Source of the DNA: Faecalibacter rhinopitheci
GTDB taxonomy: Bacteria > Bacteroidota > Bacteroidia > Flavobacteriales > Weeksellaceae
NCBI RefSeq assembly: GCF_015234135.1
Contig: NZ_JADGIK010000003.1
Coordinates: 186,001 to 250,000 of the forward strand
Length of the DNA stretch: 64,000 nt
Reading direction: 5' to 3'
Of the stretch, positions 53,253 to 62,343 are shown piece by piece. The position numbers and the translations under genes are program-made. The notes below the pieces were generated by a model. That model saw only the letters and a list, made by a program, of their open reading frames with translations, was not told the DNA's origin and ran no database searches. The stretch's first letter is position 1, and each line of letters starts with the position of its first letter.

Positions 53253-53864
53253 TTATTCCGGTCGTCTTGGACCATTTTCTCTCGATTTTAAAACGTTTTC
53301 TACGTCTTCTAATTTAAATCCTTTTGCTTTAAGTAAAATCAAATAGTGATACATCAAATCTGCTGCTTCACCTAAGAATAAATCATCATTGTTATCTTTT
53401 GCTTCGATGACAATTTCAACCGCTTCTTCACCAACTTTCTGTGCAATTTTATTGATTCCTTTATTGTATAACTTATACGTGTATGAATCTTTATCTTCTG
53501 CTAAGTCGATACGGTCGTTAATGGTTTGCTCCAATTCGTAAACAAATCCACGATTTGATACTTCGTTGAAACAAGTTGTAGAACCTGTATGACACGTTGG
53601 TCCAAATGGTTTTGCCTTGATTAAAATTGTATCGTTATCACAATCAATTGCAATTGATTTTACTTCTAAAAAGTTTCCTGATTCTTCCCCTTTTGTCCAT
53701 AATCTATTTTTTGAACGAGAATAGAAAGTTACTTTTCCTAACTCTTCAGTTTTAGCAAATGCTTCTTCGTTCATATAGCCTAACATCAATACTTGATTAT
53801 TTAGGTAATTCTGAATAATGACAGGAACTAATCCGTCGTTACTTTTTGTGAAATCGATTTTCAT
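53253..53864 (-). CDS. hisIE: Bifunctional phosphoribosyl-AMP cyclohydrolase / phosphoribosyl-ATP pyrophosphatase
   Basis: Catalyses steps 2 and 3 of histidine synthesis. It has 203 residues. The HisI part (1-105) shows [19 protein letters not shown], the Asp-rich DCDNDT metal motif and [12 protein letters not shown] with the zinc cysteines. The HisE part (110-203) has [15 protein letters not shown] and [13 protein letters not shown]. Last gene of the his operon; its ATG overlaps the hisF stop by 4 bp. Confidence 0.97.
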
Positions 53865-54613
53865 CGTATCGGAATGTTTTGTTCTTTTAAATAATTTTTA
53901 AGTGTCGGAATCGGAATTTCACCAAAGTGAAAAATACTTGCCGCTAAACCTCCACTTGCTTTTGTTTGGGTAAACACTTCGGTAAAATGTTCCATTTTTC
54001 CTGCGCCACCAGACGCAATTACCGGAATATTTACAGCTTCTGCTACGGATTTCGTAATATCAATTTTAAAGCCAGCTTTTGTTCCATCTCCATCCATCGA
54101 TGTTAATAGAATTTCTCCAGCTCCTAATTCTTCCACTTTCTTTACCCAATCTAGCGTTTCCCATTCGGTTTCAATTTTTCCACCACTGACAAAAACTTTT
54201 TGTGTACCGTTTACATCGCGTGTATCCACAGCAACAACCACACATTGAGATCCAAAACGAGCTGCTAAATCAGCCACCAATTGAGGATTTTTTACTGCAG
54301 ATGAATTTACAGAGACTTTATCCGCACCTGCTTGAATTACAACCGAAGCATCTTCTACCGAATTGATTCCGCCACCCACTGTAAATGGAATATTAATTGC
54401 CGCCGCAATTTTTTCGACCATTTCAGCTAAGGTTTTACGTTTTTCAATCGTCGCTGTAATATCTAAAAACACCAATTCATCAGCGCCTTCTTCTACATAT
54501 TTCTTTGCTAATTCCACTGGATCTCCGGCATCGCGTAATCCAACAAAATTAACTCCTTTTACTGTTCTTCCATCTTTGATGTCGAGACAGGGAATGATTC
54601 TTTTTTTTAACAC
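53861..54613 (-). CDS. hisF: Imidazole glycerol phosphate synthase, cyclase subunit
   Basis: Makes imidazole glycerol phosphate and AICAR with HisH. It is a 250-residue TIM barrel. [15 protein letters not shown] carries catalytic Asp11, VVAVDTRD the second catalytic Asp (about 130), and the phosphate sites are VGGGINS and IASGGAG. A 150-bp gap with inverted repeats separates it from hisA. Confidence 0.97.
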
Positions 54614-54620
54614 CTTCTAA

Positions 54621-54763
54621 AGTTTTTATGTGTTGACGTTGTTCTGTGAGTATGTTTTAATGTGTTTAAGTTGTTGTTGTTTTTAAATCTTATAATTTAG
54701 ACATAATCCAGTTTTAGAAGTGAAACACTGTACAACTTACCAACTGAAACACTTTACCACTTA
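54621..54763. repeat. Inverted-repeat spacer between hisA and hisF
   Basis: The left part is made of AAGTT/TGTG-type words in one sense (AGTTTTTATGTG at 54621-54632), the right part of their complements (ACTTACCAACTGAAACACTT...). The arms are imperfect and could fold as a long RNA hairpin. The 12-mer AGTTTTTATGTG recurs inverted in two other his-operon gaps. Confidence 0.6.
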
Positions 54764-55480
54764 CTAACTGATAAACTCTACTAAATCCTTCAACTGAATA
54801 CGTCCCTCGTAAATCGCCTTTCCTAAAATAGCACCTTCGCAACCTAATTCTTTAACTTTAATTAAATCGTCGATAGAAGCAACTCCTCCAGAAGCAATTA
54901 ATTTTACGTCTGCAGAAGCTAAAATTTCTGCATACAATTCGTTCGATGTTCCTTGTAACATTCCATCTTTCGCGATATCAGTACAAATCACATAATCAAT
55001 CCCTTTGGCTTTGTATTCTTGGATAAAATCAATCACATCTAATTCAGAAGTTTCTAACCAACCGTGTGTTGCAATTTTACGGTATTTAGCATCTGCTCCT
55101 AAAATGATTTTTTCGCTTCCGTATTGAGAAATCCATTCTTGAAATAAAGTAGGATTTTGAACAGCAATACTTCCACCTGTAATTTGATTCGCACCACATT
55201 CAAAAGCAATTCGAATATCATCATTTGCCTTAATTCCACCACCGAAATCCACTTTTAAATTGGTTTTCGATGCGATTAATTCTAATGTTTTATAATTGAT
55301 GATTTGCTTTGATTTCGCACCATCTAAATCCACTAAGTGTAAAAATTCGATTCCGTAATCTTCGAATTCTTTCGCAACTTCTAATGGATTTTCGTTGTAT
55401 ATTTTTTTTGTATCGTAATCGCCTTGAGATAAACGAACGCATTTTCCGTCGATTAGATCTATTGCTGGGATGATTCTCAT
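54764..55480 (-). CDS. hisA: Phosphoribosylformimino-AICAR-P isomerase
   Basis: Step 4 of histidine synthesis. It is a 238-residue TIM barrel homologous to His[16 protein letters not shown] has catalytic Asp8, VDFGGGIK and LIASGGVAS bind phosphate, and [13 protein letters not shown] holds the second catalytic Asp (about 130-170 region). Flanked on both sides by repeat-bearing gaps. Confidence 0.97.
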
Positions 55481-55489
55481 ATTTTTTAG

Positions 55490-55587
55490 TTTTTAAGTGT
55501 TCAAGTTTTTAAGTTATTAGGTTTGTAAGTGTTTAAGTTCGTCTAGTTTAACTTTAGCACATAAAAACTTCACAACTTAATCACTTA
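55490..55587. repeat. Inverted-repeat spacer between hisH and hisA
   Basis: The left arm has TTTTTAAGTGTTCAAGTTT and TAAGTGTTTAAGTT; the right arm has CACATAAAAACT (55558-55569) and CTTAATCACTTA (55576-55587). The second arm runs into the hisH stop codon. The same two 12-mers recur in the hisC/IVP gap. Confidence 0.6.
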
Positions 55588-56163
55588 TAGCGATAAAAAG
55601 TTCTTCAATATCTGCTCTCCAATTCCAGCTGATTTCTCTGGGTGAAATTGAGTTGCATAAAAATTATCTTTATTTAAAGAAGCTGAATATTCTAGAATAT
55701 AATTGGTTTTCGCAATCGTATATTCTGAAAGTTCGCAGTAAAAACTGTGTACATAATAAATGTCCGAGTTTTCTTCAATTCCTTTATATAAAGTGGTTTT
55801 TAAATCGTAAATGGTATTCCACCCCATATGTGGAACAATCTCCGTTGATGGAAATAACTTTACTTGAATTGGAAAAATTCCTAAACAATCCGTGTTTCCT
55901 TCTTCCGAAAAAGCACACATCAATTGCTGACCTAAACAAATTCCTAAGGTTGGTTGTTTTAAGTTTTTGATGACTTCATCTAAACCTTTTTCTTTGAGAT
56001 AAGTCATTGCAGAACTCGCCTCTCCCACACCTGGAAAAATTACTTTATCTGCATTTTGCAAAGTTTCAAAATCGTCTGTAATTACCGCTTCGTAACCTAA
56101 ACGAGTTACGGCATTGTAAACCGATTTTACATTTCCTGCGTTATATTTTACAATCGCAATCAT
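55585..56163 (-). CDS. hisH: Imidazole glycerol phosphate synthase, glutaminase subunit
   Basis: Supplies ammonia from glutamine to HisF. It is a 192-residue class I glutamine amidotransferase. Nucleophile Cys76 lies in TLGICLGQQLM, and the His174/Glu176 pair in QFHPEKS completes the triad. FPGVGEASSAM is the oxyanion region. Its ATG overlaps the hisB stop by one base. Confidence 0.97.
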   Translation of the reverse strand: MIAIVKYNAGNVKSVYNAVTRLGYEAVITDDFETLQNADKVIFPGVGEASSAMTYLKEKGLDEVIKNLKQPTLGICLGQQLMCAFSEEGNTDCLGIFPIQVKLFPSTEIVPHMGWNTIYDLKTTLYKGIEENSDIYYVHSFYCELSEYTIAKTNYILEYSASLNKDNFYATQFHPEKSAGIGEQILKNFLSL

Positions 56164-57296
56164 TATAGCATTCCTTTTGTTGAAGGTAAAATCATTTTTT
56201 CTGGATCGCGTTTTACCGCTACTTTAATTGCTTTTGCAAACGCTTTAAAAATCGCTTCGATTTTGTGATGCTCATTTGTTCCTTCCGCTTTGATATTCAA
56301 GTTGGCTTTTGCTCCGTCTGTAAACGATTTAAAGAAGTGATAAAACATTTCTGTTGGCATTTGACCAATCATTTCACGTTTAAAATCTGCTTCCCAAACT
56401 AACCAGTTTCTTCCACCAAAATCAATCGCTGCTTGCGCTAAACAATCGTCCATTGGTAAAGTGAAACCGTAACGTTCGATGCCTAATTTATTTCCTAACG
56501 CTTGAGCGAAAACTTCTCCTAAAGCAATTGCAGTATCTTCAATCGTGTGGTGTTCGTCTACTTCTAAATCGCCGTCCACTTTAATCACTAAATCCATTTG
56601 CCCGTGACGCGCAATTTGATCTAACATGTGATCGAAAAAGTGGATACCCGTAGAAATATCTGATTTTCCTGTTCCGTCTAAATTTAAATCGATTTTGATT
56701 TTTGTTTCGTTGGTATTACGAACAATTGAAGCTGTACGATTCTGTAATTTTAAGAACTCGTAAATTTGTTTCCACGAAGTTGTTTTTAATGCAATAGCAT
56801 CATTTAAGCCTTCGTTATCTTGGATTTCGTCTGCTCCTAAGGCTTCATCATTGGCAATGAAAATTCCTTTTGCCCCTAAATTCTGCGCTAATTTAACATC
56901 GGTAATACGATCTCCAATTACAAAAGAATTCGCTAAATCATATTCCGGATTGTTGATGTATTTGGTTAACATCGCCGTTCCAGGTTTACGAGTTAGAGCA
57001 TTTTCGTGTGCAAACGTTTTATCGATGAAGATATCTTCAAATTTAACTCCTTCATTTTCGAATGCTTTCACTACGAAATTTTGAATTGGCCAGAATAATT
57101 CATCTGGATTAGCAGGCGTTCCTAAACCGTCTTGGTTCGTTACCATCGCTAATTCATAATCCAATTCTTTTGCAATTTTACCTAAATAAGTAAATGCTTC
57201 TGGATAGAATTCTAATTTAGAAAAGCTGTCTACTTGATAGTCAGTCGGCTCTAAAATCATTGTTCCATCTCTATCTATAAAAAGTATTTTTTTCAT
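56163..57296 (-). CDS. hisB: Bifunctional histidinol-phosphatase / imidazoleglycerol-phosphate dehydratase
   Basis: Steps 6 and 8 of the pathway on one chain of 377 residues. The HAD phosphatase part (1-165) has FIDRDGTM with Asp8 and Asp10 and the [13 protein letters not shown] motif. The IGPD part (about 185-377) has metal-binding [15 protein letters not shown] and [14 protein letters not shown]. The fusion is the enterobacterial-type HisB also found in many Bacteroidota. Confidence 0.97.
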
Positions 57297-57336
57297 CTTG
57301 TATGTTTGTAAGTGATTAGGTGATGAAGTTTTTAAG
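57297..57336. repeat. Repeat arm downstream of the four-helix-bundle gene
   Basis: Holds TAAGTGATTAGG and AAGTTTTTAAGTTA, the inverse of words found at 57823-57834 and 57863-57874 on the other side of the gene. Confidence 0.55.
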
Positions 57337-57693
57337 TTATTTCGCGCCTATATGTTTTATAAAACCGGCAATCATTTTTCCTACTTCTTCACTTTTACTC
57401 ATCAATATTTTGTGTTCTTTTTCTGTTATATAATTCAAATCCTTAGAAAGTAAAAAGTAATACTTCAGTTCTTCTAAAGATGTATCTGAAATGTTATAAA
57501 AATGGATTTGATGAGCTTTCGTTTGCTTCTTATATTCTTCAACAATATTGGCAGGAACAGAAACTGCACATCGTTTCATTTGACTCGATAATGCAAATAT
57601 TTCTGATTTAGGAAATTTATCTACCGTTTTATACACTTCCAAAACAAGTTGATGCGCTTCTTTCCATAAATTTAAATCATAAACTAGGCCCAT
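57337..57693 (-). CDS. Four-helix-bundle protein of the 23S rRNA intervening-sequence (S23) type
   Basis: A 118-residue all-helical protein with the family's pattern: [24 protein letters not shown] at the start, the conserved [21 protein letters not shown] core, a second helix pair with [15 protein letters not shown] and the C-terminal [14 protein letters not shown]. The family is named after proteins in 23S rRNA intervening sequences and includes the diversity-generating-retroelement accessory Avd. No rRNA or reverse transcriptase is near. It sits inside the his operon between hisC and hisB, flanked by AT-rich inverted repeats, so it looks like a late insertion. Function unknown. Confidence 0.85.
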
Positions 57694-57699
57694 AATAAT

Positions 57700-57882
57700 T
57701 TGGTTTAAAGGTTAGTATATTAAGTTATGAAAAATGTTTAAGTTGGACAGTTTTTATGTTAGTATGTTGTTCAGTTTATAAGTTGAAAAATTTAATCAAG
57801 TGAAATATCATAAACTTAAAAACTTAATCACTTAGACACTTAAACACTTAACCACATAAAAACTTAATCACTTACTAACTTA
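57700..57882. repeat. Repeat-rich spacer between hisC and the four-helix-bundle gene
   Basis: The first half carries AAGTT-type words (ATTAAGTTATG, GTTTAAGTTGG, AGTTTTTATGT). The second half carries the complements, including two copies of CTTAATCACTTA and one of CACATAAAAACT (57853-57864). It can fold back on itself or pair with the arm at 57297-57336 across the gene. Confidence 0.65.
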
Positions 57883-58932
57883 CTAACTTAACCCCTTAAG
57901 CATTTCCATCAACTTCCCATTTTCCTCTTCCGTTCCAACTGTAATACGTAAACAATTTTCACATAAATCATCGTTGTTACGGTTACGAATTACGATTCCT
58001 TTTTCAACTAATTGGTTATAACGCTCGTTGGCATTATCCACTTTGATTAAGATAAAATTCGCATCGCTTGAATAGATTTTTTCTACAAAAGAAACTTCAG
58101 TTAAGGCATTTTCTAAAACTTCTTTTTGTTGAATAATCGTATTTGTTGCAGCTACCACTTTTTCGTAATCGCTTAAAATTTCAATTGCTTTTAACTGTGT
58201 TAATTGATTGATGTTATAAGGCGGTTTAATTTTATTTAAAACAGCTACAATTTCTTGTGAAGCATATAAAATTCCTAAACGAATGCCGGCTAAACCAACA
58301 GCTTTTGATAACGTTTGGGTAACGATTACATTTGGATAATTGTTAATTTCTTCGATCCAAGATGGTTCAGTTGCGAAATCAATATAGGCTTCGTCGATAA
58401 TTACTAATCCGTTGAAACGATTGACAATTTCTAAAATCGCTTCTCTTTTGATGATTTCTCCCGTCGGATTGTTAGGCGAACATAAGAAAATCATTTTCGT
58501 GTTTTCATCCACTTTCGAGAAAATATCTTCGATGTTGGGTTGAAAATAGGATTCGTTTAATAATGATTTACGGTATTCAACAGCATTTAAATTAGCTAAA
58601 ACACCGTACATTCCGTAAGATGGCGAAATGGCGATGACATTATCTTTATTTGGTTCGCAAAACGCACGGAAAATTAAATCCAAAACTTCATCACTTCCGT
58701 TTCCTAATAAAATCTGATTGGCAGGGAAGTTCTTAATTTCGCTTAAAATCGATTTTACATTTCGTTGTAAAGGATCTGGATAACGATTTAATCCATTGTT
58801 AAACGGATTTTCGTTGGCATCTAAGAAAACGAAATCGTTATTGATATCTTGAAATTCGTCGCGAGCAGATGAATACGCTTTCATTGCTTTTACGTTTGGA
58901 CGAATGATTGTATCTAAGTTGAAATTGTTCAT
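57883..58932 (-). CDS. hisC: Histidinol-phosphate aminotransferase
   Basis: Step 7, a PLP-dependent class I/II aminotransferase of 349 residues. The Schiff-base Lys210 is in TQTLSKAVGLAGIRLG. Also typical are LDANENPF (substrate side), CSPNNPTG (about 151-158), IDEAYIDF and the C-terminal LRITVGTEEEN with the phosphate-binding Arg. Its ATG overlaps the hisD stop by one base (TAATG). Confidence 0.97.
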   Translation of the reverse strand: MNNFNLDTIIRPNVKAMKAYSSARDEFQDINNDFVFLDANENPFNNGLNRYPDPLQRNVKSILSEIKNFPANQILLGNGSDEVLDLIFRAFCEPNKDNVIAISPSYGMYGVLANLNAVEYRKSLLNESYFQPNIEDIFSKVDENTKMIFLCSPNNPTGEIIKREAILEIVNRFNGLVIIDEAYIDFATEPSWIEEINNYPNVIVTQTLSKAVGLAGIRLGILYASQEIVAVLNKIKPPYNINQLTQLKAIEILSDYEKVVAATNTIIQQKEVLENALTEVSFVEKIYSSDANFILIKVDNANERYNQLVEKGIVIRNRNNDDLCENCLRITVGTEEENGKLMEMLKGLS

Positions 58933-60215
58933 TATTTTAAATCGTTTAAGCGTAAAGTAACCGCATTTTTGTGCGCAAATAATTCTTCAGCTTCTGCCAT
59001 AAATTCGATAGCAGGACCGATGTTTTGAATTCCTTCTGCTGATAATTTTTGGAAGGTAATTTTCTTGATAAAACTATCTAAAGAAACGCCCGAATAATTT
59101 TTTGCATATCCGTTTGTAGGTAAGGTATGATTTGTACCTGAAGCATAATCTCCAGCCGATTCACACGAATAGTTTCCTAAGAAAACAGAACCTGCATTAA
59201 TGATTTTTGGAATAAAATCTTCCGCAGTTTCGCAAGCGAAAATTAAATGCTCTGGCGCATAAATATTAGAGAAAGCAACACATTCTTCAATCGAATTTAA
59301 AACAATTCCTCTCGAATTTTCTAATGCTTTAGCTGCTAATTCTTTTCGTGGTAAAACTTCTAATTGCGCGTTGATTTCGGCAATTGTTTCGTTTAACGTT
59401 TGCTTGTTCGTTGTTAATAAAATCACTTGAGAATCAATTCCGTGTTCTGCTTGTGACAATAAGTCGGCAGCTACATATTTCGGAACGGAAGTTTCATCTG
59501 CAATCACTAAAACTTCACTAGGACCAGCAGGCATATCAATCGCCACTCCAAAATTTTGAGCTACTTGTTTTGCAGCCGTTACATATTGGTTTCCTGGGCC
59601 AAAAATTTTATCGACTTTCTGAATCGTTTCTGTTCCAAACGTTAAAGCGCCGATCGCTTGGATTCCTCCAACTTTGTAGATTTTTTCGATTCCGATTAAG
59701 TTTGCTGTATATAAAATTGCTGGGTGAATTTTTCCTTCTTTATTTGGAGGTGTACATAAAATAATATTTTGACATCCGGCTAATTTTGCAGGAATTCCTA
59801 ACATTAATGTTGTTGAAAATAAAGGTGCAGTTCCGCCAGGAATATAGATTCCGACATTTTCAATTCCGCGCGATTCTCTCCAACAATTCACACCTTTTGT
59901 TGTTTCAATGACTTTTACTTCCTCACGTTGTACCGCGTGGAATTTTTCAATATTAGAAGCTGCTAATTTGATCGCTTGTTTTAAATCTTCAAAGATTAAT
60001 GCTTTTGCTTCTTCAATTTCTTCCGCAGAAACTTCTAAAGAAGTTAATCGAACTTTATCAAATTGTTCTGTAAAGTTGATTAAAGCTTGATCTTTCTCCG
60101 TTTGGATTTTACCAAAAACATCTAAAACAATTTTTTGTAAATCTTGCGCTTCTTTGGTTGGACGAGAAGTTAAATCTGACCAATCTGAAAGTTGTGGGTT
60201 TATATAGGTTTGCAT
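58932..60215 (-). CDS. hisD: Histidinol dehydrogenase
   Basis: The last two oxidations to histidine, NAD- and zinc-dependent. It has 427 residues. Signature regions are YIPGGTAPLFSTTLMLGIPA, VDKIFGPGNQYVTAAK, DMPAGPSEVLVIAD, LSQAEHGIDSQ (catalytic Glu-His) and SAGDYASGTNHTLPTNGYAK. It lies 33 bp after hisG. Confidence 0.97.
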   Translation of the reverse strand: MQTYINPQLSDWSDLTSRPTKEAQDLQKIVLDVFGKIQTEKDQALINFTEQFDKVRLTSLEVSAEEIEEAKALIFEDLKQAIKLAASNIEKFHAVQREEVKVIETTKGVNCWRESRGIENVGIYIPGGTAPLFSTTLMLGIPAKLAGCQNIILCTPPNKEGKIHPAILYTANLIGIEKIYKVGGIQAIGALTFGTETIQKVDKIFGPGNQYVTAAKQVAQNFGVAIDMPAGPSEVLVIADETSVPKYVAADLLSQAEHGIDSQVILLTTNKQTLNETIAEINAQLEVLPRKELAAKALENSRGIVLNSIEECVAFSNIYAPEHLIFACETAEDFIPKIINAGSVFLGNYSCESAGDYASGTNHTLPTNGYAKNYSGVSLDSFIKKITFQKLSAEGIQNIGPAIEFMAEAEELFAHKNAVTLRLNDLK

Positions 60216-60248: not shown

Positions 60249-61106
60249 TTACAAAATCATTTTTTCAATTTCTAATACTAAAATTCCTTCGGCACCAAAA
60301 GCTTTTAATTGCTCGATGATATCCCAAAAAGTATCTTCTTTAATTACTGTATGAATAGATGACCAACCTTCTTGCGCTAATGGTAATATTGTAGGAGATT
60401 TCATTCCTGGCAATAAAGCAATGATTTCTTCTAACTTTTCATTTGGAGCGTTTAATAAGATGTATTTGTTTTCTGAAGATTGTTTTACGGCTTCGATTCT
60501 GAATAATAAACGGTCTACGATTGCTTGCTTTTCAGCTTCTAAGTTTTTATTTGCAATTAAAACAGCTTGAGATTCTACAACTGTTTCCACTTGTTTTAAA
60601 CCGTTTGTTAATAATGTAGAACCTGTAGAAACAATATCAAAAATAGCATTAGCCAAACCAATGCTTGGTGCAATTTCTACACTTCCACCGATTTCTTCGA
60701 TTTTTACGTTAATACCTTTTTCTTGGAAGAAGTTGCCTAAAATACGAGGATAAGAAGTGGCAATTTTTTTGTTTTTGAAGAATGATAAATCAGTATAAAC
60801 TTCATCTTTAGGAATAGCTAAACATAATTTACATCCTGCAAAACCTAATTGACGAACAATATTGATGTCTTTATTTTTTTCCCAAACTTCATTTTCACCT
60901 AAGATTCCGATATCAGCTACACCTTGTTCTACATATTGTGGGATATCGTCATCGCGTAAGAATAATACTTCGATTGGAAAGTTAGATGATTCGGTTCTTA
61001 ATTTTCTACCACTAGCAGAAATTTTAATCCCGCAATCCTTTAATAGTTCTAAGGATTTTTCACTTAATCTTCCGCTTTTCTGAATGGCAATTTTTAATTT
61101 ACTCAT
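60249..61106 (-). CDS. hisG: ATP phosphoribosyltransferase, long form
   Basis: The first committed step of histidine synthesis. I start it at 61106 (MSKLKIAIQKSGRL), giving 285 residues. A longer frame to 61166 would run through the leader's terminator hairpin and is not the true start. GILGENEVWE and IVSTGSTLLTNGL (PRPP-binding) are clear. The C-terminal 75 residues form the HisG_C regulatory domain (GMKSPTILPLAQEGW), so feedback inhibition by histidine is expected. It is controlled also by the attenuator just upstream. Confidence 0.96.
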   Translation of the reverse strand: MSKLKIAIQKSGRLSEKSLELLKDCGIKISASGRKLRTESSNFPIEVLFLRDDDIPQYVEQGVADIGILGENEVWEKNKDINIVRQLGFAGCKLCLAIPKDEVYTDLSFFKNKKIATSYPRILGNFFQEKGINVKIEEIGGSVEIAPSIGLANAIFDIVSTGSTLLTNGLKQVETVVESQAVLIANKNLEAEKQAIVDRLLFRIEAVKQSSENKYILLNAPNEKLEEIIALLPGMKSPTILPLAQEGWSSIHTVIKEDTFWDIIEQLKAFGAEGILVLEIEKMIL

Positions 61107-61163: not shown

Positions 61164-61197
61164 CAAAAAAACCGACTGATTTACTCAGACGGTTTTA
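61164..61197 (-). terminator. Attenuator terminator of the his operon
   Basis: On the minus strand AAAACCG-T-CTGA, loop GTAAA, TCAG-T-CGGTTTTTTT: an 11-bp stem with one T-T mismatch and a U-run, between the leader peptide and hisG. Its 5' arm CCGTCTGA can instead pair with TCAGGCGG at the end of the leader ORF. Confidence 0.88.
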
Positions 61198-61244
61198 TAT
61201 TATATTTTAGTTCAATACAGAATACAACATATCAGGCCGCCTGA
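61185..61244 (-). promoter_or_regulatory. Antiterminator pairing of the his leader RNA
   Basis: TCAGGCGG (61237-61244) can pair over 8 bp, one of them G-U, with CCGTCTGA (61185-61192), the 5' arm of the terminator. The upstream segment lies under a ribosome that has reached the leader stop codon and is exposed when the ribosome stalls at the His codons. Confidence 0.75.
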
Positions 61245-61291
61245 TGGGAGCTATGATGATGATGGATATGATGTGTTTGATTGAAAAACAT
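61232..61291 (-). CDS. hisL: His operon leader peptide, 19 residues
   Basis: The ORF reads MFFNQTHHIHHHHSSHQAA then TGA, with seven His codons in 19, five of them among residues 8-13. It lies 125 bp upstream of hisG, downstream of a TAACTTTG promoter box, and is followed by an antiterminator/terminator pair. This is the layout of a transcription-attenuation leader: with enough charged tRNA-His the ribosome reaches the stop codon and the terminator forms; when it is scarce, stalling lets the antiterminator form. Found by reading the sequence; too short for routine ORF calling. The symbol is by analogy with enterobacterial hisL. Confidence 0.88.
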   Translation of the reverse strand: MFFNQTHHIHHHHSSHQAA

Positions 61292-61310
61292 TTTCTTTTT
61301 TTTGCTTGTG

Positions 61311-61318
61311 CAAAGTTA
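61311..61318 (-). promoter_or_regulatory. Candidate -7 box of the his operon (TAACTTTG)
   Basis: Exact TAnnTTTG match on the minus strand, 19 nt before the leader ATG. Confidence 0.55.
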
Positions 61319-61449: not shown

Positions 61450-62343
61450 TTATCTTTTTATAAACTTATAAGTGTTACTATCTTTATCAGTGTGTACTTT
61501 TATAAAATAGATTCCATTAGATAATTCTTTAACATTCATTTCTGTTGTATTTTCTTTTCTTAAAATGCTGTTTCCATTAAAATCAATAATTTCTAGAGAT
61601 TTAATATTTGTTATAGAATTTACTTTTAACCAATCTGATGTAGGATTTGGGTAAATAGATATAGTATTAATAGAAACTTCATTGTTTGATAAATGATCTA
61701 AATTGACAATTTTTATATTATCTACATTAAAACCTGAATAATTATCAAACTCAAAATCAACTTCGGTTACTTTTTGAATTTGAGAAGGAATAGCAACTGT
61801 ACGAATGTGATTATTGTTTAAATATAAATCAATTTTTCGTGTATTAAAGTCATAATCAGCTTTTAGATTATACCAAGTGTTTGGTTCCCAGTTCCCAGAT
61901 GATTGAGATGTTGTTTCATCTCCAATGATTATATCACCTAAAAAATCGAAGTAGAAACCACTAATGTATTCATATTCTCCATTTGTGTTGTCATAAATGC
62001 TTAATAAATCATGATCTGATCCATACAATTCTTCCATATTAACATCTGCAGAAATAATAAACTTTTTTGCTTCAGGTAATTTATATACAATTCCGCCCCA
62101 ATTCCCTTCATTTGCTGGGTCTGCAATAAGCTGGGCAGATAAATTTCCATCAGAATATTTATTATTTGAAACATTTGCATAACCTTCCGTTATGTATCCA
62201 TAACTTTCCCATGTATTCTGACCAACTAAATATCCTGTTGAATATCCTTCTGTTTCTTCAAAAGAAATATTTTTTTCTTGTGCACTTACTTGATTGAAAA
62301 TTAATGCAAATAGGGATAATGTAAATAATTTTTTTCTCATCAA
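61450..62343 (-). CDS. Type IX-secreted protein with concanavalin-like domain
   Basis: A 297-residue exported protein. Signal peptide 1-21 (QVSAQ). Residues about 23-210 form a beta-sandwich of the laminin-G/concanavalin type (GYSTGYLVGQNTWESYG, WYNLKADYDFNTRKIDLYLN, GFNVDNIKIV). The last 75 residues are a type A sorting domain (INTISIYPNPTSDWLKV, IIDFNGNSIL, SNGIYFIKV, KFIKR end), so it should be secreted by the type IX system and anchored or released. No catalytic motif is apparent; it may bind a glycan or surface. Confidence 0.85.
   Translation of the reverse strand: MMRKKLFTLSLFALIFNQVSAQEKNISFEETEGYSTGYLVGQNTWESYGYITEGYANVSNNKYSDGNLSAQLIADPANEGNWGGIVYKLPEAKKFIISADVNMEELYGSDHDLLSIYDNTNGEYEYISGFYFDFLGDIIIGDETTSQSSGNWEPNTWYNLKADYDFNTRKIDLYLNNNHIRTVAIPSQIQKVTEVDFEFDNYSGFNVDNIKIVNLDHLSNNEVSINTISIYPNPTSDWLKVNSITNIKSLEIIDFNGNSILRKENTTEMNVKELSNGIYFIKVHTDKDSNTYKFIKR

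Follow-up and report, generated by a model that had tools for sequence, protein, structure and literature searches.

In all likelihood, the his operon of Faecalibacter rhinopitheci is preceded by a leader-peptide transcription attenuator, predicted from its sequence to sense charged tRNA-His. The element lies upstream of hisG in the window, i.e. the whole 64 kb stretch of DNA that was analysed, and combines a His-rich ORF, an intrinsic terminator, an antiterminator positioned such that a ribosome could mask it, and a protector hairpin for which the covariation comes from relatives. A complete ribosome-mediated his attenuator had already been proposed in the first-pass annotation of this DNA, and conservation of the ORF and covariation of the alternative stems both support that proposal.

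Anatomy of the hisG leader region

The features of the region are collected in Table 1. The leader peptide MFFNQTHHIHHHHSSHQAA has seven histidines, at codons 7, 8, 10–13 and 16 (ATG TTT TTC AAT CAA ACA CAT CAT ATC CAT CAT CAT CAT AGC TCC CAT CAG GCG GCC TGA), and its ORF is the sole His-rich leader-like small ORF followed by a terminator within the 64 kb window. Strand 2 (UCAGGCGG, read 61244–61237) and strand 3 (CCGUCUGA, read 61192–61185) form 8 base pairs, seven of them Watson-Crick and one G.U, giving a duplex of −13.6 kcal/mol compared to a shuffled mean of −7.2 kcal/mol (p = 0.020 for this locus alone), while the terminator stem has a predicted energy of −12.8 kcal/mol and a single U.U mismatch. 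The 19-codon ORF with seven His codons, the terminator and U-run before hisG and the 8-nt pairing had all been noticed on first reading; all were confirmed, and the pairing is exact. Spacers resembling GATAT...ATATC, as judged by eye, recur in relatives.

Downstream of the leader, the his genes follow on the same strand. Between hisC and hisNB lies a gene for a 118 aa protein of the PF05635 family (57337–57693), known as the 23S rRNA intervening-sequence protein family and also described as bAvd-like. Based on HisG, the closest named relatives are Faecalibacter macacae (94%) and Empedobacter species (88–91%).

Table 1. Features of the his leader region and operon, in window coordinates
Feature	Position	Strand	Basis
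Co-directional gene 5' of the leader	61450–62343	minus	ORF list
Probable sigma-A −7 element TAACTTTG, consensus TAnnTTTG, about 20 nt 5' of leader start	61311–61318	minus	sequence
Leader peptide ORF MFFNQTHHIHHHHSSHQAA, 19 codons	61232–61291, including TGA	minus	sequence; conservation from genus to beyond class
Local protector hairpin AUCAGG/CCUGAU, clade-specific version, would sequester strand 2	61231–61245	minus	sequence and folds, this locus
Strand 2, antiterminator 5' strand UCAGGCGG, leader codons 16–19	61237–61244	minus	
Spacer hairpin (61231–61221 with 61206–61196), would bring strands 2 and 3 close together	61196–61231	minus	predicted fold, this locus only
Strand 3, antiterminator 3' strand and terminator 5' arm CCGUCUGA	61185–61192	minus	
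Intrinsic terminator, stem 61196–61168, strand 4 on 3' side, U-run to 61165	61165–61196	minus	
hisG, first structural gene	60249–61106, ATG at 61106	minus	Pfam PF01634 and PF08029
hisD, hisC, PF05635 gene, hisNB, hisH, hisA, hisF, hisIE	53253–60215	minus	ORFs; Pfam for hisD to hisA
hisF	53861–54613	minus	named from translation
hisIE	53253–53864	minus	named from translation

Conservation of the His-rich leader

For comparison, hisG loci were chosen by taxonomic sampling and independently of leader similarity, covering the genus (14 genomes), family, order, class and phylum as well as named relatives. A leader was scored as His-rich when an ATG-initiated small ORF with at least 4 His in 8 residues was present within 400 nt upstream of hisG, and by this measure 180 of the 247 hisG loci have one, versus none of the 247 reverse strands and 5 of 4940 dinucleotide shuffles. 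The ORF is thus kept throughout the family and far beyond it, which answers the first of the checks proposed with the first-pass annotation. With the criterion relaxed to at least 3 His in 8 residues and GTG and TTG starts allowed, the counts per group, which are descriptive only as the sets share loci, were 14/14 for the genus, 59/61 for the rest of the family, 37/38 for the second sampled family of the order and 13/13 for its other families, 58/62 for other Bacteroidia, 23/34 for the phylum outside the class and 73/78 for the named relatives, with 0/20 for the small-genome endosymbionts. Examples of leaders from relatives are MYTIQFHHHHHHTCTQAS, MNFIQLHHHHFHTCPQAS and MINNVHIHHHHHSYRAGRLG. 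A terminator is present in 257 of the 282 loci whose leader has 3 or more His in 8 residues. Judged from these sequences, the predicted attenuator is common to most sampled histidine-making Bacteroidota, far more widely than catalogues show.

Pairing and covariation of the competing helices

Pairing of the leader end with the terminator 5' arm was scored in 205 distinct loci with both leader and terminator. The median energy of the 2:3 duplex is −12.9 kcal/mol, whereas shuffled sequences give −7.8 and permuted partners −9.7. The duplex beats 95% of its shuffles in 139 of these loci and fails to do so in the other 66. Covariation was scored on an alignment of 70 non-redundant sequences from Flavobacteriales and other Bacteroidota (A1), which was made without structural guidance, as was a second alignment (A2). 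The antiterminator 2:3 is paired in 92.3% of A1 cells; four pairs show double-sided changes (27 cells), the covariation score is 0.230 (0.168 when shuffled), and slid registers are paired in at most 43.8%. For the terminator 3:4 the paired fraction is 94.7% and the score 0.229 (0.126 shuffled), and for the protector 1:2 these are 80%, with 15 double-sided cells, and 0.190 (0.130 shuffled). None of 500 shuffles reached the observed score for any of the three helices; covarying alternative stems, the second proposed check, are therefore found. RNAalifold predicted six of the eight antiterminator pairs from A1.

The most variable antiterminator pair is G-C in 36 sequences, A-U in 23 and G-U in 8, and the terminator partner of the matching strand 3 base is G in 37, A in 24 and G opposite U in 7. 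The variable strand 3 position is either U, with A and A as its partners, or C, with G and G, so that a single position tracks two partners, one in the antiterminator and one in the terminator. The protector scored here is the CUUGC:GCGAG helix, which lies within the end of the ORF and overlaps strand 2 in most relatives; the AUCAGG:CCUGAU version of the window is known from its sequence and fold alone. A covarying protector makes termination the default when the leader is not translated, and most relatives would thus have a full four-strand attenuator. Outside the Flavobacteriales type the strands differ in sequence and are still complementary, for example GGUAGGCU:GGCUUACC in Chitinophaga and GGCGCCGG:CCCGGCGC at locus L229.

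When partners were permuted in a separately aligned block set comprising 117 sequences of Flavobacteriales, the paired fraction had a mean of 0.673 and a maximum of 0.715, with 0.707 observed, which is not significant. This weak signal comes partly from misaligned rows, and A1 and A2 were used in place of the block set. As permuted and observed values are close within the Flavobacteriales, where much of the pairing reflects sequence conservation, the covariation signal is carried chiefly by a single variable pair and by the differences between groups. Since the covariation shuffles leave relatedness in and the block permutation is not significant, the case for the alternative helices is made by the covarying pair, the replacement of strands between groups, the slid controls and the geometry described below, taken together.

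A conserved promoter motif upstream of the leader

The TAnnTTTG consensus, named in PMC9723704, occurs within 70 nt 5' of the leader start in 209 of 257 loci, compared to 94 of 2570 mononucleotide shuffles, with a peak at 16–20 nt. Between the terminator and hisG it was found in only 2 of 234 loci. This distribution bears on the suggestion that the hairpin merely terminates the gene upstream of the leader (61450–62343), with the hisG promoter located downstream of the hairpin and the His-rich ORF incidental. That gene is indeed co-directional, and between terminator and hisG the window has TAACTTTT, which nearly matches the −7 consensus. However, the order of leader, strand 2 and hairpin is the same in most sampled loci and in many families, the promoter motif sits 5' of the leader and rarely in the position that such an arrangement would need, and a plain terminator of the upstream gene gives strand 2 no reason to covary with the hairpin, which together make this explanation extremely unlikely when set against attenuation.

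Ribosome geometry and proposed mechanism

The position of strand 2 relative to the His codons was examined by arithmetic, with the ribosome footprint in the window sequence taken to reach some 12 nt 3' of the A site. The duplex is significant in 139 loci. In every one of these, 13 nt or more (median 24) separate the first base of the initial His codon from the beginning of strand 2, and in 136 of them strand 2 ends inside roughly the stretch that a ribosome covers when it stands at the stop codon. In the window, strand 2 is entirely accessible when the ribosome stalls at any of the His codons 7–11, with codon 12 as a borderline case. Stalling at codons 13 or 16 masks part or all of the strand, and so the late His codons are not expected to aid antitermination. 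The first-pass annotation had strand 2 masked at the stop codon and free at the His cluster, and this holds for codons 7–11 with codon 12 on the border, but not for codons 13 and 16.

When stalled states were modelled before the 3' arm of the terminator exists, the antiterminator formed at −17.8 kcal/mol, while the minimum-energy fold of the full-length RNA is the terminator in all modelled ribosome states. As the full-length minimum is always the terminator, the choice for antitermination would have to be kinetic and co-transcriptional, like that of known attenuators.

From the computed ORF, competing helices, geometry and promoter we infer ribosome stalling, a choice of helix during transcription and a response to histidine, as follows. 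RNA polymerase would start just 5' of the leader ORF, and a ribosome would then translate the leader. With ample histidyl-tRNA it would reach the stop codon and cover strand 2, leaving strand 3 to pair with strand 4, upon which the terminator would form and transcription would end before hisG. When histidyl-tRNA is scarce, the ribosome would stall in the first His codons and cover the region upstream, such that strand 2 would be available for pairing once strand 3 has been transcribed, the two would pair, no terminator would form and the his operon would be transcribed. Without translation, strand 2 would be held by a local hairpin (CUUGC:GCGAG in most relatives, AUCAGG:CCUGAU in the clade of the window), with termination as the default.

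A function of the leader ORF in translation, via reinitiation at hisG or RNA stability, with the hairpin as a structural or processing element, is very improbable. In PMC4833913 leader genes near structural genes were proposed to boost translation by reinitiation, with the distances in Bacteroidetes peaking at 11–14 bp, but the gap between the leader stop codon and the hisG start is 125 nt, well over the at least 40 bp expected for attenuation in the same publication, and the hairpin has a U-run on its 3' side and shows the covariation of a terminator helix.

Specificity of the element and searches for known families

A covariance model of the element was built from 50 sequences and used to search genomes. 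The hisG leader was the top match in 14 of 14 genomes of the genus, at 64.8–88.5 bits, with the next best match anywhere at 43.7 bits, and the search suggested along with the first-pass annotation thus returned the hisG leader in first place each time. As the top match of the model is always the hisG leader, the element belongs to the his operon and is not a generic terminator. On other groups the model gave 31.4 bits at locus L046 and no match at L314 and L104, and this poor transfer is consistent with turnover of the strand sequences.

The Rfam family RF00514 (His_leader) scored 27.0 bits in the window, below its gathering score of 49, and had no match at gathering threshold in the loci of 20 relatives. 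Likewise, none of the curated riboswitch and T-box families reached threshold in the window or in these 20 loci. Weak Rfam matches to Phe_leader and trpB were discarded as being due to the terminator. A terminator and antiterminator by themselves would equally fit a riboswitch, a T-box or an RNA-binding protein, where ligand, tRNA or protein binding governs the terminator and the ORF is secondary. There is scarcely any probability left for such control, as no Rfam family was found at threshold in the window and the 20 relatives' loci, little space is left between the strands, and nothing in the element is more constant than the His cluster and its distance from strand 2.

Losses and other leaders

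In 18 endosymbiont loci from genomes of about 600 kb (L129–L149 except L132, L140 and L147), which we infer from size and kinship to be Blattabacterium-like, no His ORF is left. All 18 retain the TAnnTTTG motif, and in 17 hisG is preceded by a GCTTAC...GTAAGC hairpin and a weak U-tract; from these sequences it seems that the regulator has degenerated, with only a plain promoter and a hairpin remaining. At locus L183 (423–511) the RNA element is intact (84.5 bits) and the leader, MTFIQNYHRFYNCSQAI, has a single His; this leader seems to be losing its His codons.

Two further leaders were noted in the same genome as the his leader, both outside the window. A Trp-rich leader, MKTLFTNNWWWKFEQQNVGS, is followed by a strong terminator and then trpE (locus L235; contig C23 of genome G000, gene at 164229–164654); the pairing of its leader end is weak at −7.9 kcal/mol, and it is a probable trp attenuator. 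The other is a Phe-rich leader, MFNYFNAYFFYFFGWYSGEQGLRCHN, followed by a terminator and a prephenate dehydratase gene (locus L236; contig C41, gene at 230495–231028), with pairing AGGGACUG:AAGUCCCA at −11.3 kcal/mol, and is probably a phe attenuator. Neither ilvD-type genes (PF00920) nor genes for homoserine dehydrogenase (PF00742) turned up when this genome was searched.

Relation to known attenuators and origin

The enterobacterial his leader folds through a longer series of stems, A to F. Like enterobacterial hisL (RF00514), the element described here has a His-rich leader ORF, alternative helices and a terminator with U-run before hisG, and would presumably respond to the same signal; unlike hisL, it uses the end of the ORF itself as its antiterminator strand and has three or four strands in all. 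With E. coli trpL it shares the four-strand logic of protector 1:2, antiterminator 2:3 and terminator 3:4, in which a stalled ribosome frees strand 2, but it has His instead of Trp codons and strand 2 lies inside the ORF end. The type of mechanism is already known, and the Bacteroidota his element is a further case of it. Amino acid attenuators of Actinobacteria (PMC1262725) are, from what that source describes, likewise a comparative discovery outside the Proteobacteria, in another phylum and with other sequences.

According to the first-pass annotation, few attenuators of this kind are described from Bacteroidota, and while little is indeed described, they are not undescribed. A transcriptome study of Flavobacterium psychrophilum from 2021 (PMC9723704) reports, in its main text, a structured 5' element before hisG which is kept in other Flavobacteriaceae and has no Rfam hit, as well as clues to leader-peptide attenuation upstream of amino acid operons. 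The hisG element of that study is very probably the same as that of the window, although its main text gives no anatomy, covariation or distribution past the family. In a study of his genes in the superphylum (PMC8305728), attenuation is discussed for enterobacteria only. We found no description of the anatomy of his attenuation or of its phylum-wide distribution in Bacteroidetes in the open-access literature, although a comparative survey, Lopatovskaya et al. 2010 as cited in PMC4833913, may cover this phylum.

A separate origin of the device had been suggested from the dissimilarity of the leader to that of Proteobacteria, but a stretch of about 150 nt is too short for its similarity to say anything on separate versus common origin. 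The Bacteroidota his operon has the same gene order and the same hisNB fusion as its gamma-proteobacterial counterpart, and transfer has been proposed (PMC8305728), which makes a common origin of operon and device a live alternative. An ancestral his attenuator of the Bacteroidota, which arose separately from the proteobacterial one, was kept in most non-Chlorobia lineages and had all three competing strands changing together between groups, is in our view a rather doubtful possibility.

Regulation of amino acid synthesis has been little studied in the Bacteroidota, and no Rfam family recognises this element; its breadth and the missing family make the finding useful, while the principle is not new. 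The analysis gives a concrete anatomy, a working model and a large set of natural variants with three covarying strands, and owing to these variants the predictions would be testable in tractable flavobacteria.
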